34,874 nt of DNA, from assembly GCA_020428685.1 (NCBI GenBank), contig JAGQMJ010000008.1, forward strand, positions 1-34,874, given 5' to 3'. This document shows, piece after piece, positions 11,879 to 23,235 of this stretch. Made by a program: the position numbers and the translations under genes. Positions within the stretch are counted from its first letter, which is position 1. Every line of letters starts with the position of its first letter. Source of the stretch: Candidatus Kaiserbacteria bacterium (GTDB lineage: Bacteria; Patescibacteriota; Minisyncoccia; Phycocordibacterales; UBA918). The notes beneath the pieces are model-generated. The model made no database searches. It was not told the DNA's origin and worked only from the letters and a program-made list of their open reading frames with translations.

Positions 11879-12427
11879 ATGCTGAAGCTAATAAAAGTTC
11901 TTTTGGTTTTGATTCTCATAGGATGGATTATTTCCTTAAATACTCAGCCTAACCAAAAGCTGGAAAGGGTGGAGATTGAAAGTGGTGGTGAGCTGGCTCA
12001 TGTCACGTATGTGATTGACGGGGATACGATTAAGGTTGAGCTGGATGGTGAGGTGGAAACAGTTCGCTATATCGGGATTGATACGCCTGAGCCATATCGG
12101 GAAGGGGAGCCAGAATGTTTCTCGAAAGAAGCTACGTCTGCCAATACGGAATTGGTGCAAGGAAAAATAGTGCGCTTGGTCAAGGACAAAGAAGATCGTG
12201 ATCGCTACGGAAGATTGTTGCGGTATGTGTATGTTGATGAAGTGTTTGTAAATGAGGTATTGGTGCGGGATGGTTTTGCTGAGGTGATGAATATAAAACC
12301 AAATACAGCACACAGTGCAGAATTTAAAAAACTAGAAAATATTGCTCGAGCTGGAGAGATCGGTGTGTGGGGAGCTTGTTCTAAAGGGGATAATAAAAAT
12401 TCGCAAGATAAAGCTGTGCGACAATAA
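11879..12427 (+). CDS. Thermonuclease (SNase-like), membrane-anchored
   Basis: A 182-residue staphylococcal-nuclease-type enzyme, which cuts DNA and RNA with Ca2+. The N-terminus (MLKLIKVLLVLILIGWIISL) is a membrane anchor or signal sequence, placing the catalytic domain outside the cytoplasm. The OB-fold core shows VIDGDT with the metal-binding aspartates, VRYIGIDTPE carrying the first catalytic arginine, then the later arginine in RDRYGRLLRYVY. Extracytoplasmic nucleases could supply nucleotides to a cell with limited biosynthesis, which is a common idea for this type of bacterium and not shown here. The binding protein gene follows 26 bases later. Confidence 0.93.
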   Translation: MLKLIKVLLVLILIGWIISLNTQPNQKLERVEIESGGELAHVTYVIDGDTIKVELDGEVETVRYIGIDTPEPYREGEPECFSKEATSANTELVQGKIVRLVKDKEDRDRYGRLLRYVYVDEVFVNEVLVRDGFAEVMNIKPNTAHSAEFKKLENIARAGEIGVWGACSKGDNKNSQDKAVRQ

Positions 12428-15493: not shown

Positions 15494-15530
15494 TTTACAT
15501 ATGTATATACAAAGTATATACTTTGTATAT
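15494..15530 (+). promoter_or_regulatory. mazEF promoter with palindromic operator
   Basis: TTTACA (15494-15499) and TATACT (15517-15522) are 17 bases apart. A perfect 26-base palindrome (15505-15530, half-site ATATACAAAGTA) covers the -10, the predicted transcription start and the first two bases of the mazE ATG. MazE-type antitoxins repress their own operons, so this is very likely the operator. Bound protein would block polymerase directly. Confidence 0.8.
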
Positions 15531-15768
15531 GAAAACCAAAATTCAAAAGTGGGGCAATAGTCTAGGAGTTCGGCTACCGAAAAGTATTGCTGAGCAAAAA
15601 TCACTGAGAGAGGGCCTTGGTGTGTCTGTGGTGATTAAGGATGGTCAAATTGTTATTGAGCCAGCTCAAGAAGACGTTACACTGGAGAGTCTTTTGGCTG
15701 ATGTCTTAATAGATAATTTGCACAATGAAACTGAATGGTCCGACGCGCGTGGTAATGAGATATGGTAA
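15529..15768 (+). CDS. mazE: MazE-family antitoxin
   Basis: A 79-residue antitoxin. The N-terminal swapped-hairpin AbrB-like domain (KIQKWGNSLGVRLPKSIAEQ) binds DNA, and the C-terminal tail (NLHNETEWSDARGNEIW) should wrap around the toxin, as its E. coli counterpart does. The start is the ATG at 15529, not the TTG two codons earlier, because it follows the -10 by six bases inside the operator palindrome. The stop overlaps the toxin start by seven bases, so translation is coupled. The close resemblance to E. coli MazE suggests horizontal spread. Confidence 0.93.
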   Translation: MKTKIQKWGNSLGVRLPKSIAEQKSLREGLGVSVVIKDGQIVIEPAQEDVTLESLLADVLIDNLHNETEWSDARGNEIW

Positions 15769-16106
15769 ATAAACAATATGTTCCAGATAGAGGCGATTTA
15801 GTATGGGTTGATTTTAATCCGACTAAGGGTAGAGAACAGACGAAAGTGCGGCCTGCTATTGTGATTTCTCCCAAAAATTACAACCAAAAAACAAGTCTAG
15901 CTATCATTTGCCCAATTACTTCAGCGCAAAAAGGATATCCGTTTGAGGTTGAAGTTAAAAATAAAAAAGTGGCTGGTGTTATTTTATCCGACCACGTCAG
16001 GTCACTAGACTGGAAAGCGAGAAATGTAAAACATATTGCCAAAGCAAAACCATCTGTACTTTCTGAAGTGCAAACAAAACTCCTTTTGCTACTGAAGATC
16101 CAATAA
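15762..16106 (+). CDS. mazF: MazF-family endoribonuclease toxin
   Basis: A 114-residue toxin that cleaves RNA at short sequence motifs when not bound by MazE. It matches the E. coli type across its length: YVPDRGDLVWVDFNPTKGRE, KVRPAIVISPKNYN with the conserved arginine, the threonine in CPITSAQKGYPFEV, and SDHVRSLDWKAR. No key residue appears to be missing, so it should be active. It overlaps mazE by seven bases. The 132 bases after it show no clear terminator. It opens the accessory island that runs to the integrase. Confidence 0.95.
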   Translation: MVNKQYVPDRGDLVWVDFNPTKGREQTKVRPAIVISPKNYNQKTSLAIICPITSAQKGYPFEVEVKNKKVAGVILSDHVRSLDWKARNVKHIAKAKPSVLSEVQTKLLLLLKIQ

Positions 16107-17015: not shown

Positions 17016-17024
17016 TGGTATTAT
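17016..17024 (+). promoter_or_regulatory. Leaderless promoter of the 68-residue gene
   Basis: TGG-TATTAT ends seven bases before the ATG at 17032. It decides that start over an ATG at 17023, which overlaps the -10. Confidence 0.5.
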
Positions 17025-17031
17025 GGTAGTA

Positions 17032-17238
17032 ATGAAACCTGACAAGAAAAAAGATGGTCTGACAGACTTGGTAGATGTAGCAAGTAGACCAGTAAGCGAT
17101 AATTCAGGTCCTAAAGTGAGTGATGGTCAGGCTGTGACTTCATCTGGAGATGTTGTTACTCTAGATTATGGTCTTGAAAACGAAATAGATGCTCTGGCCA
17201 AACGAATTACAAAACAAGTTGAAGACAAAAAAGTCTAA
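17032..17238 (+). CDS. Small hydrophilic hypothetical protein
   Basis: A 68-residue protein (begins MKPDKKKDGLTDLVDVA) with no recognised domain. The middle is Ser/Gly/Val-rich and the last 25 residues are a predicted amphipathic helix (NEIDALAKRITKQVEDKKV). It converges on the HEPN-like gene and overlaps its 3' end by four bases. Its size, charge and position make an accessory or inhibitor role for the adjacent operon possible, but nothing in the sequence proves it. Confidence 0.6.
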   Translation: MKPDKKKDGLTDLVDVASRPVSDNSGPKVSDGQAVTSSGDVVTLDYGLENEIDALAKRITKQVEDKKV

Positions 17239-18629
17239 CTAGCTTCATTGATAGGTTCAGGTGTAACTTTCCTTGTATAGGCTTGAATCACATTCTCTAT
17301 CATTTCATTTAGGTGTCCCATGTCTACCGCCATTCTTTCTAGTGGATTGAATGTGTACTGTTCACCGTCTTTCTCAACTACTGCAATATGTTCAACAACC
17401 ACTTTCATTTTTGAAATGCGGTAGGCTTGGCGGTCTTGAATTCTTTTATTTTCCTCAAATCCTTCAGGAAACATGTGGACAATATCGGCTGGTATAGGAG
17501 GTTCTTTTGCATAAATAATTGCATCAATTTCTGCATCAGTCATTTTTGATTCAGGTGTTTCAGCTGTAAGTGGACCAGCTGTCATTACTTCTCTATGTGC
17601 TGATTGATTTCGTACTTCACCAAGGAAAAAAAGCCATTCCTGAACAGTATCAGATGTAATATACGAATGAAGTATCTCATCAACTTCTTGAAGTCGCGAA
17701 ATAAATTCAGCACGATTTTTATTTTGAGTTACTTTGAATCCAACCTTCATGCGTCCGTTTTCTAGGCTATAGCCAATGTCAAGAATGTCGTTGGTTATCC
17801 ATGCAAGGTGGTCAATTGCACCATAGAGAAGGTAGTAATAAAAGTTTAGATGATAAATAATGGAACTATGAAAACGAGGATTTACGCTGTTGAATATACC
17901 CTTTCTTACAGCGTCTAGCTGTTGCTGAATTTTGAAGAAAAGGATTTGGTCACGTGCTACTAGCAAGTCTGGGTATCTGTTGTGATTGAAAGACCTTACT
18001 TTTTCTTTTGCACTGTCACTTACACCTTTGCTATGAATGAGCGATTCAAAAGGATGTAGTTTTTTATTGATAAAACCATCTATCATTTGGTGGGCAAGAT
18101 TGGGTGAATCAATGCCGTAAATAGGACTACTGAATTTGTAGTAGTTATAAAATCCTTGTAAAAAAATCTCAATATTGGACACCAAGTCCTCGTAGCTTAC
18201 GATAATCAAACCGTATCCTTCACGAACGTGGACTCTAACATCTTCAGGAATATCTAAGGGTGTTACAAAGTACAGACACTTGTTTTGAACTGCCAAAGTA
18301 ATTGATTCATTTAGTACTCTGGTAAAATTTGAAAAGTCTTCTTCAAGAGCAAGAATTTCTTCAGGCAAGCTCATATCAGTCAGAACGCTTTCGGGAGGTT
18401 CATTTATGTTTGTTATGTCATCTGTTGGAAAAAATGCTCTCCTGGTACCTAGTATTTCTTCAGAGTATTTCGGATAGTAAAATGTCACTTTACATAAGTT
18501 CGGTTCGATACTGTTCATGTAGTGGTGAAGCATGTCCACAAGCCCTACTTTCTGCTCTATTCTCTGGCCAAAAGAAAAAAGCATTGGGTCAATCATCACA
18601 CTCAGTTCGTTATTTATCAGGTTCCACAT
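17235..18629 (-). CDS. HEPN-like protein, second gene of a putative defence operon
   Basis: Unrecognised 464-residue protein. Its C-terminal half is helical and contains YYYLLYGAIDHLAWI (about 264-278) followed by EVRNQSAHREV, which has an R-x4-H motif (R340, H345). Helical hairpin plus R-x4-6-H is the mark of HEPN domains, many of which are RNases in toxin-antitoxin and anti-phage systems. The N-terminal 220 residues look alpha/beta and match nothing I know. It begins 12 bases after the stop of the Shedu-like gene, with no SD, so the two form an operon. The HEPN call rests on one motif and its helical context. Confidence 0.6.
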   Translation of the reverse strand: MWNLINNELSVMIDPMLFSFGQRIEQKVGLVDMLHHYMNSIEPNLCKVTFYYPKYSEEILGTRRAFFPTDDITNINEPPESVLTDMSLPEEILALEEDFSNFTRVLNESITLAVQNKCLYFVTPLDIPEDVRVHVREGYGLIIVSYEDLVSNIEIFLQGFYNYYKFSSPIYGIDSPNLAHQMIDGFINKKLHPFESLIHSKGVSDSAKEKVRSFNHNRYPDLLVARDQILFFKIQQQLDAVRKGIFNSVNPRFHSSIIYHLNFYYYLLYGAIDHLAWITNDILDIGYSLENGRMKVGFKVTQNKNRAEFISRLQEVDEILHSYITSDTVQEWLFFLGEVRNQSAHREVMTAGPLTAETPESKMTDAEIDAIIYAKEPPIPADIVHMFPEGFEENKRIQDRQAYRISKMKVVVEHIAVVEKDGEQYTFNPLERMAVDMGHLNEMIENVIQAYTRKVTPEPINEAS

Positions 18630-18641
18630 AGTGCATAAAGT

Positions 18642-19925
18642 CTATAAATTCTTTAGTTTCTGGACCGTTTCAAATAAATGTTTTAGAAGGTCATCGTAAG
18701 TCATGAACAAGTATCCTCCTCGGGCATAGAGTTTTTCTAACTGGTCTTGATATATTTTTTTAGTACGGCCAGCAATAACCACGCCTTTTATTGAAGTTAC
18801 ATCATCAATAGAAACACCGTCCATCTTCAAGTCATTTAGAAAACCATACCTGTTTCTTTGCGACTCCAATAACCAGTCTTCAACTTGATTGATGGCGTGT
18901 GTCAGTTGCGAGTGTTGACTGTTATCTTTTGTGAATAGTTGAAGATTTGCTCTCTCGATTTCAATTAGCACTAGTTCATTACGATGATTGTATATAGCAA
19001 AATCAGTTTTGTGTTTAGTAGTGGCGTCAGCTTTGAACTTCAATAATCTTGGGTTGAAGGGATTTAGTATAAATGGATTTTCTTCAATATATTTTTGAAT
19101 TTGTTCCTCTGTAGTTTCCTCGTTTTCAATTAGTTCTTTGAAGCCACGATAAATTTCTTCAAGTTTTGCATGGGTATAGTTTCTCTCCATTGATTCACTA
19201 TTTGTGAAAGGGCTTGGCTTATATCCAAGTAGATAGTGCATATTTTCTTTTAGATAATGCAGAGGAATATGCAATTTTCCGCATTTGCACTTGAATTCAG
19301 TGGGCAGGTCTTCATACCAAATAACACCTTCAGCTATATCATCTTTATCTATGCCAGCTTGGATTTGTAATACTTCTTTGCATTCATTACAACGTAGCTC
19401 GTATTTCACATGCTTGGCACTCAGAGGGTCACTTTTTATAGCTTGCAGTCTTGCTGGTGTAAGAGGTAAAGCTTTGCTATGAGATATGAAAAAACTGCCG
19501 ATTCTATCTTCTCTGAAAAATAAATCATATTCACCTGGTTCTCTAAATATGCCTGGGATTTTTGCCACAGAAATTGTATATTTTGTAGGAAACTTACTAC
19601 CGCCACCAACAATTTCAAATGATGAAATTTCTATAAAGCCTACCTCGTGACCATTTGAAGACTGCTTCAGCATAATCTTCTCTTTCACTACTTCTTGTAC
19701 CCTGTAGTTATCAATTTGAAGAACAATATAGTAGTTGTCAGCAGGCAAAGGGAAAATCACTTCGCTAGTTATTGTTCGAAGCCCAATCATGTCTTGACGA
19801 GTAAATTTGCCACCACCGTCTGCTGTGCCTATTGAGGGTGTTGAATACCTGTCGCAAATACCTAGAAAATATACGGGCAGGTTATCTTTCAGAATTTTGT
19901 CTGACAGCTTATTTTCAGTGTTCAT
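18642..19925 (-). CDS. Shedu-like (DUF4263-type) nuclease with zinc ribbon
   Basis: A 427-residue three-part protein. Residues 1-150 are beta-rich and resemble small phage-associated domains (FPLPADNYYIVLQIDNYRV). Residues 175-220 hold a zinc ribbon, C179-x2-C182 and C213-x-C215. Residues 275-427 resemble the PD-(D/E)XK nuclease of the Shedu anti-phage family: YIEENPFIL at 279-287, TDFAI with D308, and VLIEIERA at 319-326. Where the usual core has E-x-K, this protein has E322-x-E324, so the metal site is altered. I chose ATG 19923-19925 because TATGCT ends six bases before it; a TTG at 19943 lies upstream of that promoter. It is the first gene of the operon. Confidence 0.7.
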   Translation of the reverse strand: MNTENKLSDKILKDNLPVYFLGICDRYSTPSIGTADGGGKFTRQDMIGLRTITSEVIFPLPADNYYIVLQIDNYRVQEVVKEKIMLKQSSNGHEVGFIEISSFEIVGGGSKFPTKYTISVAKIPGIFREPGEYDLFFREDRIGSFFISHSKALPLTPARLQAIKSDPLSAKHVKYELRCNECKEVLQIQAGIDKDDIAEGVIWYEDLPTEFKCKCGKLHIPLHYLKENMHYLLGYKPSPFTNSESMERNYTHAKLEEIYRGFKELIENEETTEEQIQKYIEENPFILNPFNPRLLKFKADATTKHKTDFAIYNHRNELVLIEIERANLQLFTKDNSQHSQLTHAINQVEDWLLESQRNRYGFLNDLKMDGVSIDDVTSIKGVVIAGRTKKIYQDQLEKLYARGGYLFMTYDDLLKHLFETVQKLKNL

Positions 19926-20074: not shown

Positions 20075-20551
20075 ATGGCCACAAAAAAACTATCCGCGTT
20101 GGACGTCGCAAACTACGTCATTTCACTCGCATCAAATAATGTTATAGGTGATGATGGTGAAGTCGAAGGTGTAACAAATTTGAAGCTTCAGAAAATACTT
20201 TATTTTATTGAAGCCTATAGCCTAGCTGTGGCTGGCAAAAGTTTGTTCCCTGATTCTATTGAAGCTTGGGAATATGGGCCTGTTATTCCTAGCGTCTATC
20301 ACAAGTTCAAAACTTTTGGTAGTAGTCCAATAATTCAAAAAGAAACGAAAGTAAAAGTAGATGAAAAAACAGCTAGCCTGATTTCTGATGTCTGGAATAC
20401 TTTCAATAAATATTCAGCCAGCCGTTTGGTTGATATAACACATAGACATGACCCGTGGAAAAATACTTACGCGAAGAACAGCAAAAGTGGGCTAAAAACT
20501 TCTATTAGTCGTGACGAGATGAAGAAATACTACAAAGGATTATTTGCATAG
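20075..20551 (+). CDS. Panacea-domain (DUF4065, SocA/GepA-like) antitoxin
   Basis: A 158-residue protein with the Panacea signature: an N-terminal ALDVANYVI helix, TNLKLQKILYFIEAYSLA near residues 44-61, and IEAWEYGPVIPSVYHKFK near 72-89. Panacea proteins are antitoxins that pair with many unrelated toxins, and SocA in Caulobacter is a ClpXP adaptor. The neighbouring gene starts six bases after its stop and is the natural toxin candidate. The gene is divergent from the Shedu-like operon. Confidence 0.88.
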   Translation: MATKKLSALDVANYVISLASNNVIGDDGEVEGVTNLKLQKILYFIEAYSLAVAGKSLFPDSIEAWEYGPVIPSVYHKFKTFGSSPIIQKETKVKVDEKTASLISDVWNTFNKYSASRLVDITHRHDPWKNTYAKNSKSGLKTSISRDEMKKYYKGLFA

Positions 20552-20557
20552 ACTTCC

Positions 20558-20977
20558 ATGGAAGAAGAACAGGTTACAAAAATTGATTTTCAGTATGCTG
20601 AAAGCCCAATTAGATTTAGCTTGAGAAGTTGTTGTACTAAAAAACCATACTCAATGATTCACATTGAGCGTCAGGCTATACCCGTGCTACTCAAGAGGTT
20701 GAAACATTTCGAAGATGAATATACCTGGAAAATGCTTGTTTCAGAAGAAAGGGGCAAGGGTATTACCCCAGAAAAAAAGAATGGCGAAAGTTACAAAGCC
20801 ATTGATGCACAGAGACAGTCGGAAGATGGTGTTTTTATGGGTGAGGAAAATCATTATTTCCACATGAGGGTGAAAAGTAAGGATAAGCAGTGGGGATTAT
20901 TCCGCATCTTTGGCTACCAGAAAAAGGACATGTTTTGTATTACACATTTTGATGTGAAGGGGTCTTTCCATCATTAG
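20558..20977 (+). CDS. Candidate toxin partner of the Panacea antitoxin
   Basis: A 139-residue protein with no family I can name. It starts six bases after the Panacea stop, the usual toxin position in such pairs. The C-terminal third reads HYFHMRVKSKDKQWGLFRIFGY and then MFCITHFDVKGSFHH. This alternation of strands with basic and aromatic residues, ending in histidines, resembles the beta-sheet core of RelE/HigB-like RNases. The similarity is in layout only. Alternatives are a different small RNase or an inhibitor of translation. No membrane segment is seen. Confidence 0.65.
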   Translation: MEEEQVTKIDFQYAESPIRFSLRSCCTKKPYSMIHIERQAIPVLLKRLKHFEDEYTWKMLVSEERGKGITPEKKNGESYKAIDAQRQSEDGVFMGEENHYFHMRVKSKDKQWGLFRIFGYQKKDMFCITHFDVKGSFHH

Positions 20978-21234: not shown

Positions 21235-22887
21235 ATGAATCCGTTTGAAGGCATAGTTACTCCAGAACAGTTAGTTGCCATACTGCAACAAAGTGTAGGA
21301 GGCGTAGAGGTACCAAAAGAAAACCTTCGATATGCAATCTACGTGAGGAAATCTACTGACTCTGAAGATAACCAAGAGCGTTCACTGGGGGACCAGCTAG
21401 ACGAATGTAAGAAACTAGCTAGTAGCCACGGAATCATCGTCTTAGACGAGAATATCGTGCAAGAGAGTGAATCTGCTAAAGAATCGGGTATACGCCCACA
21501 GTATCGAAAACTGATAAATAGAATCGTGGCAGGTGAACTTGATGCAATAATCGCATGGCATCCAAATCGCCTCACAAGAAACATGCTTGAGGCAGGTGAA
21601 ATCATCGACTTACTTGATAAGCAGATAATAAAGGATTTGAAATTTCCTAGTCATACGTTTGTAAATGATGCTTCAGGGAAGATGCTCTTGGGAATTGTGT
21701 TTGTGATGGCAAAGCAGTATTCAGAGCAATTGAGTGCAGATATCAAGCGGGGTAATCAAAAAAGTATTGAAGCAGGTGATTACATCAATACACCGAAGCA
21801 TGGCTACATAAAAGACAACAACAAGAAGCTTCGACCCGACCAAGGTAACTGGGCAATTATCAAGCAGGCTTTTCAGATGAGATTGGAAGGGCAGACACTT
21901 GAATCAATAGTGAAGTATGTGCGTGATTCAGGCTATTTCGGTAGAGGTAAAGATAATCGTGAAATACAGTTCAAGATGTCGCTTTCGACCATGGCCAATA
22001 TATTCACTGACCCATTTTACGCTGGTGTGCTTCAGTATGGAAAACAACACGTAAACCTAACGGACCTGTATGACTTCATGCCGATGATTACGGTCAAAGA
22101 GCATTTATCTATAAACAAATATGACTCTATAAAGGAAGCGTTTCGGCCACGTAGGTCACAGCGTAGTCTGGGTAAGTTGGTGGCAGATTTCTTGCCACAG
22201 CACGTGTATTGCTCGCACTGTGAAGGTCATATGCAGGCAGGTATCAGTAAGGGTAAAACCAAGCAGTATTACTACTTCAGATGCCAGACACCAGAGTGTG
22301 AACGGTACAACAAAGGAACCAGAGCCAAAGTGGTTATTGATTTTGTAGTGGATTTTCTTGCAAAGCATCCGTTTGCTTCAAAGTCGTCTTATCAGAGTTA
22401 TCGTCAGGAAATTATCAGAATTCAGAATCAAGGATTGTCTGAATTGAATTCGCAGATAGCGAGTGCCAAAAAGAAGAATAGCTTGATGGCTGATGATATT
22501 GCTGAAATAAAATTGAATCTATCCAAAGAAAAAGACATCGATACCAAGACTATTCAAAAACAAGAACTGAAGCGTTTGGAAAGCGAACTCTTGGCAGGTA
22601 AGAAGATGGCTGAAGAATTGCTCGCAAAGAAAGCAAAGATAAATAAAGCACCGCTTACGTTCGAAGAGTTTATTGATGTTATGGAAGCGTTACCAGCTAA
22701 AATCAAAAAAGTTCAATCGACAAGTGGCAAACATGAGTTGATTGCACCTGTGTTCTTGAACTTTTTTGTCTCAGCGAAAAACGTTGAAAAATATGGTCTA
22801 AAATCACCTTTCAATAAGCTTATTGCTGATGATTTTTCGAAGTGTGGAGATGGGGGGAATCGAACCCCCGTCCGAATTAGGGTGTGA
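21235..22887 (+). CDS. Large serine recombinase (integrase)
   Basis: A 550-residue large serine integrase, which joins element and chromosome through a covalent serine-DNA intermediate. The catalytic domain has YAIYVRKSTDS with S40 as nucleophile, the arginine-rich PNRLTRN, and a recombinase domain from about 180. A zinc ribbon (YCSHCEGH, then FRCQTPEC) lies near 323-350, followed by a coiled coil at about 395-470. The last 14 residues (CGDGGNRTPVRIRV) are encoded by the 3' end of tmRNA, read on the opposite strand, so the natural C-terminus may have been replaced on integration. A TAGAAT hexamer (21223-21228) ends six bases before the ATG. Confidence 0.95.
   Translation: MNPFEGIVTPEQLVAILQQSVGGVEVPKENLRYAIYVRKSTDSEDNQERSLGDQLDECKKLASSHGIIVLDENIVQESESAKESGIRPQYRKLINRIVAGELDAIIAWHPNRLTRNMLEAGEIIDLLDKQIIKDLKFPSHTFVNDASGKMLLGIVFVMAKQYSEQLSADIKRGNQKSIEAGDYINTPKHGYIKDNNKKLRPDQGNWAIIKQAFQMRLEGQTLESIVKYVRDSGYFGRGKDNREIQFKMSLSTMANIFTDPFYAGVLQYGKQHVNLTDLYDFMPMITVKEHLSINKYDSIKEAFRPRRSQRSLGKLVADFLPQHVYCSHCEGHMQAGISKGKTKQYYYFRCQTPECERYNKGTRAKVVIDFVVDFLAKHPFASKSSYQSYRQEIIRIQNQGLSELNSQIASAKKKNSLMADDIAEIKLNLSKEKDIDTKTIQKQELKRLESELLAGKKMAEELLAKKAKINKAPLTFEEFIDVMEALPAKIKKVQSTSGKHELIAPVFLNFFVSAKNVEKYGLKSPFNKLIADDFSKCGDGGNRTPVRIRV
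22843..22887. other. Putative attachment site at the tmRNA 3' end
   Basis: The integrase reading frame runs 43 bases into the tmRNA acceptor and T-arm. The tmRNA is intact on the right side, as expected if the element to the left inserted at its 3' end and restored it. I found no second copy of this sequence in the window, but serine integrases need only a very short common core. Confidence 0.5.
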
Positions 22888-23235
22888 TTGTGAGTCTACA
22901 GTGCGTAGTTAGTTCTTTGAGTTTAAAGTCATTTGCTTGAGAACAAACAAAACACAAATGACTCGAGTTGTTTAATTCTTAGTTACCTACGACAACGGCA
23001 AAGGTAGCCAAAGTCTCGTGTCTATTCTACCTCAGTCAGCGTATGAGACGTTTACTGATGAAGCATCGTCCGGCAGGCGTAATTACGCGAATGCGGGAGC
23101 GAGTCCGAACGCGTTAGCGTAAGGACTTAGTATTGCTTTTTTTGCAAATACAAATTGGAACCTCTTAACGAATTGATTACCAGTTTCGACACTGCACACA
23201 ATCAGCACGACCAACCGTCGATGCCAAGCATCCCC
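22845..23235 (-). ncRNA. ssrA: Transfer-messenger RNA
   Basis: tmRNA frees ribosomes stalled on broken mRNAs and tags the unfinished protein for proteolysis. The 5' end GGGGATG (23229-23235) pairs with CATCTCC (22846-22852), and the T-arm GGGGGTTCGATTCCCCC is intact. The CCA end is not encoded. The tag frame at 23083-23145 gives AKKAILSPYANAFGLAPAFA. The length of 391 bases is typical. smpB lies just upstream on the same strand. The integrase gene overlaps the 3' end. Confidence 0.95.
23083..23145 (-). other. tmRNA tag-peptide reading frame
   Basis: Starting at the GCA resume codon (23143-23145) the frame encodes 20 residues and ends in TAA. The tag is longer than the 10-residue E. coli tag and ends in Ala-Phe-Ala, not the usual Leu-Ala-Ala, which may reflect the preferences of the local protease set. 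Confidence 0.8.

Follow-up and report, generated by a model that had tools for sequence, protein, structure and literature searches.

The window analysed here, a stretch of 34,874 nt from a Candidatus Kaiserbacteria genome (contig JAGQMJ010000008.1), contains a compact two-gene operon in which a divergent relative of the Shedu nuclease SduA (427 aa; 18642..19925, reverse strand) is followed, 12 nt past its stop codon and on the same strand, by a 464-aa protein with a HEPN domain supported by transitive homology (17235..18629, reverse strand). Both genes ride on an island, integrated at ssrA, that also carries toxin-antitoxin-like pairs, and they probably serve in anti-phage defence. The pairing of an SduA-like with a HEPN gene looks new and was seen in one genome only; the conserved feature is not this pair but the placement of the HEPN gene as the second gene of an operon whose first gene changes. 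A preliminary description, made from the sequence alone, had given both genes with the right coordinates, strand, 12-nt spacing and residues; its interpretation is supported in part.

The reading that we favour, tentatively and as a possibility somewhat short of probable, is a mobile two-gene defence module that combines a Shedu-like DNA sensor or activator with a constant HEPN RNase effector, both functions being predicted ones. During infection, the Shedu-like protein would recognise foreign DNA, by analogy with the DNA-end binding of EcSduA, while itself cutting DNA weakly, differently or not at all, and would activate the HEPN protein, which would then cleave RNA and bring growth to a stop (abortive infection). 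In such a module, the role of constant effector would fall to the HEPN protein, with an exchangeable sensor/activator encoded by the first gene. A sensor with a HEPN effector, already suggested in the preliminary description, is plausible. We favour this reading because EcSduA uses its N-terminal part to bind DNA ends and places its nick at a set distance (reviewed in PMC12904381), because Rx4-6H HEPN domains are predicted RNases that are common in abortive infection (PMC3710099), and because, in related systems, HEPN RNases next to DNA-targeting nucleases have been suggested to be suicide effectors of last resort (PMC12839542). A broader proposal, which we consider rather unlikely, would place the unit in an undescribed family of mobile, partner-swapping two-gene modules of small-genome bacteria, with a constant HEPN RNase behind interchangeable sensors, one of which would be a Shedu protein that, having lost the catalytic lysine, senses DNA instead of cutting it.

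The Shedu-type nuclease domain recognised in the preliminary description was borne out by model searches. The C-terminus of the 427-aa protein holds the SduA_C/DUF4263 domain according to both Pfam (PF14082, E = 3.9e-19, 69.8 bits versus a cut-off of 27) and the SduA models of PADLOC (best match 2.2e-20), and a profile that includes the protein found the solved Shedu proteins 8ti8, 8ps4 and 8ti9. Within this PD-(D/E)XK domain (18684..19115, reverse strand), D308, E322 and Q347 have counterparts in an alignment with 23 further SduA proteins, of which 12 belong to the host's phylum and 11 come from plasmids (Pseudomonadota, a cyanobacterium and a haloarchaeon). Two residues beyond the glutamate, all 23 have lysine and only the window protein has glutamate (E324), at the position that aligns with the catalytic lysine of 8ti8 and 8ps4; the protein departs from the complete catalytic set of Shedu, D...E-x-K plus Q, at the lysine alone. 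Since the lysine is present in every other aligned SduA and in the solved Shedu proteins, the change from E-x-K to E-x-E pointed out earlier is real and unusual, being unique among the 24 aligned proteins. By its domain, the protein is a divergent Shedu relative and a candidate, rather than an established, member of the active Shedu nucleases, which form homotetramers that bind DNA ends, nick DNA and restrict phages.

As in Shedu proteins, whose DNA-end binding goes through variable N-terminal domains (PMC12904381), the N-terminal part of the protein is variable. Besides Glu324 in place of the catalytic lysine, it differs from Shedu in a putative zinc ribbon, C179-x2-C182 ... C213-x-C215 (19260..19400, reverse strand). 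The cysteine pairs are present (CNEC at residues 179-182 and CKC at 213-215), whereas no model matched above its cut-off (Rubredoxin, E = 0.1), so the support is at motif level; the cysteine pattern was not found in the other SduA proteins of the phylum that were checked. AlphaFold2 predictions on the lone sequences had mean pLDDT values of 37.8 for the SduA-like protein and 36.5 for the HEPN protein, too low to inform on folds, including the helical bundle with a composite active site that characterises HEPN domains.

Loss of the catalytic lysine in this protein alone, together with the retention of D308, E322 and Q347, speaks for the sensor-effector module. The same residues bear on a different arrangement with two effectors, in which the Shedu-like protein would cut DNA by means of an E-x-E site like that of BamHI and would be backed up by the HEPN RNase when DNA cutting fails. 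BamHI, a PD-(D/E)XK enzyme, is active with E-x-E, and by this analogy the motif in the SduA-like protein is no proof of a dead nuclease and may still be catalytic, a point that also counts against the sensor-effector module. Furthermore, the retention of all three other residues is not expected after long inactivity, and the notion of HEPN proteins as suicide effectors in reserve is an accepted one (PMC12839542). However, because the lysine is kept in 23 of 23 other Shedu proteins, its loss likely matters, and we consider an arrangement of two effectors somewhat unlikely.

For the 464-aa second protein, searches returned no match to any Pfam, NCBIfam or PADLOC family, PF18730 (Cthe_2314-like HEPN) included, and a PDB sequence search found no relatives. 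Among 380 sampled genomes of the phylum, a homologue was found in genome G279 (E = 6.4e-10, 26% identity) which itself matches PF18730 above the cut-off (1.9e-8), and a two-sequence profile found a third member in genome G838 (E = 2.9e-25), whose PF18730 match (6.4e-5) lies below the cut-off. The HEPN assignment is therefore transitive, as the homologues match PF18730 while the protein's own sequence fails to; the HEPN-like nature proposed in the preliminary description holds by way of these homologues and the family model, and not by direct family detection, which counts against the sensor-effector module. An HMM built from four PF18730 matchers scored the window protein at 24.7 bits over residues 256-372 (17514..17864, reverse strand), compared with 10.0 bits for the best of 2000 shuffles, whereas an HMM from only the two distant PF18730 members, with the two close homologues removed, did not detect it. 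The matched region contains R340-N-Q-S-A-H345, an Rx4-6H motif with a polar residue after the arginine, of which R340, N341 and H345 (RN-x3-H) are invariant in all three members. The sequence comparisons thus support a Cthe_2314-like HEPN protein, probably an RNase as predicted from its motif; the motif RN-x3-H is common to the window protein and PF18730, from which the former differs by an extra N-terminal region without a family match; no fold is assigned to its first ~150 residues. The second-gene family would comprise proteins of ~400-460 aa with a Cthe_2314-like HEPN domain that keeps RN-x3-H. Across 364 genomes of the host's class, the profile of this family retrieved the window protein itself and one marginal match only.

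In all three loci where it was found, the HEPN gene takes second place in a tight operon, lying on the same strand 12 nt (window), 4 nt (G279) and 11 nt (G838) behind the first gene, with a serine recombinase 2.6, 2.6 and 4.0 kb, respectively, from the HEPN gene. The first genes of the G279 and G838 loci encode proteins of 472 and 333 aa without a family match, and no homology was found among the three first genes in any of the pairwise comparisons. A HEPN domain in the G279 and G838 first genes was considered and rejected, each having a lone Rx4H string and no family match. The constant operon order behind three unrelated first genes, with recombinases nearby, argues for the sensor-effector module.

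The exact pair, by contrast, was met at a single locus in the material searched, and this counts against that module: the pair was not seen at any of the 24 other SduA loci inspected (13 in the phylum sample and relatives, 11 on plasmids), and the conservation of the pair in other genomes, on which the preliminary description had made its proposal depend, was not found. A single genome of the phylum sample, G051, has matches to both PF18730 and SduA_C, and the two lie ~83 kb apart; no relative of the window's HEPN protein was found in any SduA-bearing genome of the sample other than the window's own. None of the neighbours at the 11 plasmid loci is annotated as HEPN, a judgement by annotation that may overlook divergent HEPN genes. 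Searches for close relatives of either protein came back empty, both by tblastn against plasmids and phages and with peptide patterns against viral and genome contigs; the homologues of the HEPN protein, used as tblastn queries, retrieved nothing in plasmids, and viral contigs yielded no Shedu relatives.

A pair confined to one genome, without such a partner at any of the other SduA loci, would suit two independent pieces of cargo, that is, a stand-alone divergent Shedu gene and an unrelated HEPN defence gene brought together in the island by chance. Shedu is, moreover, described as a single-gene system, whereas the SduA-like gene here has a tight second gene. Against mere adjacency, the 12-nt same-strand gap suggests co-transcription, and the G279 and G838 homologues likewise follow a first gene at 4 and 11 nt, so that a partner seems to be the rule for the HEPN protein; independent cargo accordingly strikes us as distinctly unlikely.

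The mobile setting is indicated by a serine recombinase gene (21235..22887, forward strand; PF00239 2e-19, PF07508 5.2e-9), the last codons of which hold the 3' end of the tmRNA gene ssrA (22842..23235, reverse strand; Rfam RF00023, 116.8 bits), the likely integration site; the two-gene unit is therefore cargo of an ssrA-integrated island. In G381, a genome of the same genus, the flanking genes are syntenic and only ~1.5 kb separates them from the tmRNA, versus ~12.9 kb in the window; other relatives have different cargo at this site, and same-genus genomes have other cargo or none. The G+C content is 0.34-0.38 at 16-21 kb versus 0.43-0.47 in much of the remaining window. The left boundary of the island is not fixed, because no long flanking repeat was found around it.

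Divergent from the operon lies a gene with a Panacea/SocA antitoxin domain (20075..20551, forward strand; PF13274 3.1e-23), and 6 nt beyond it starts a 139-aa ORF (20558..20977, forward strand) with weak matches to NF046006 (MAG6450; 1.5e-4) and NsnC (1e-4), its putative partner and perhaps a toxin. Panacea proteins are antitoxins against diverse toxins (PMC8832971), and the two genes are likely a PanAT-type pair, as judged from sequence. On the other side, overlapping genes for a MazE-like antitoxin (15523..15768, forward strand; PF04014 3e-9) and a MazF/PemK-like toxin (15762..16106, forward strand; PF02452 9.3e-29) form a MazEF/PemIK-like pair (15523-16106). A short ORF of 68-71 aa (17023..17238, forward strand; 68 aa from an inner ATG) converges on the operon and overlaps the HEPN stop codon by 4 nt; the suggestion that it is a third component found no support, as it has no family match and nothing similar elsewhere in the genome. 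In a promoter and terminator scan, promoter-like sites were rarer than in shuffles and terminator-like sites no commoner.

The toxin-antitoxin-like neighbourhood is consistent with the sensor-effector module. Together with a constant second gene and variable first genes at three loci, it would also suit first genes that are exchangeable effectors restrained by the HEPN protein as a constant, antitoxin-like regulator, but only three loci are known and all three keep the predicted RNase site RN-x3-H, needless in a purely regulatory protein, which leaves this reading very doubtful.

The Cthe_2314 HEPN family had no operon association detected in a 2013 survey (PMC3710099), whereas the HEPN gene of the window is an operon partner. 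As here, HEPN and restriction-endonuclease modules are joined in one conflict system in the DUF4145-HEPN/REase fusions (PMC3710099); those associations, however, fuse modules from different HEPN and REase families, whereas the window has two genes, one Shedu-type and one Cthe_2314-like. If the sensor-effector module is real, it would be a case of a Shedu nuclease domain recruited to work alongside an RNase encoded by the adjoining gene, and the first operon context for the orphan Cthe_2314-like HEPN family. The exact pair is known from a single locus, the HEPN gene from three.

Several further features were observed in the material. In the variable region adjoining the island, the window encodes a staphylococcal-nuclease-like protein (11879-12427; PF00565 1.2e-19). 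The G838 locus (L047, 2-7256) is a serine-recombinase island in which DUF5681, DUF5677 and DUF4238 proteins surround the HEPN homologue. In genome G210 (L049, 5814-7152), a PF18730 HEPN protein (6.1e-11) is followed after 43 nt by a 178-aa ORF that has no Pfam match and contains a D...E-A-K string resembling PD-(D/E)XK, possibly a second HEPN-nuclease pairing. Finally, the G279 contig (L048, 8238-11405) contains an ORF with a pilin-like N-terminus, the C-terminal sequence of which (NNSPS..S.IGFRVAR) recurs, altered, in a separate ORF ~2 kb downstream; the two ORFs look like a repeat pair and possibly represent a diversifying gene.
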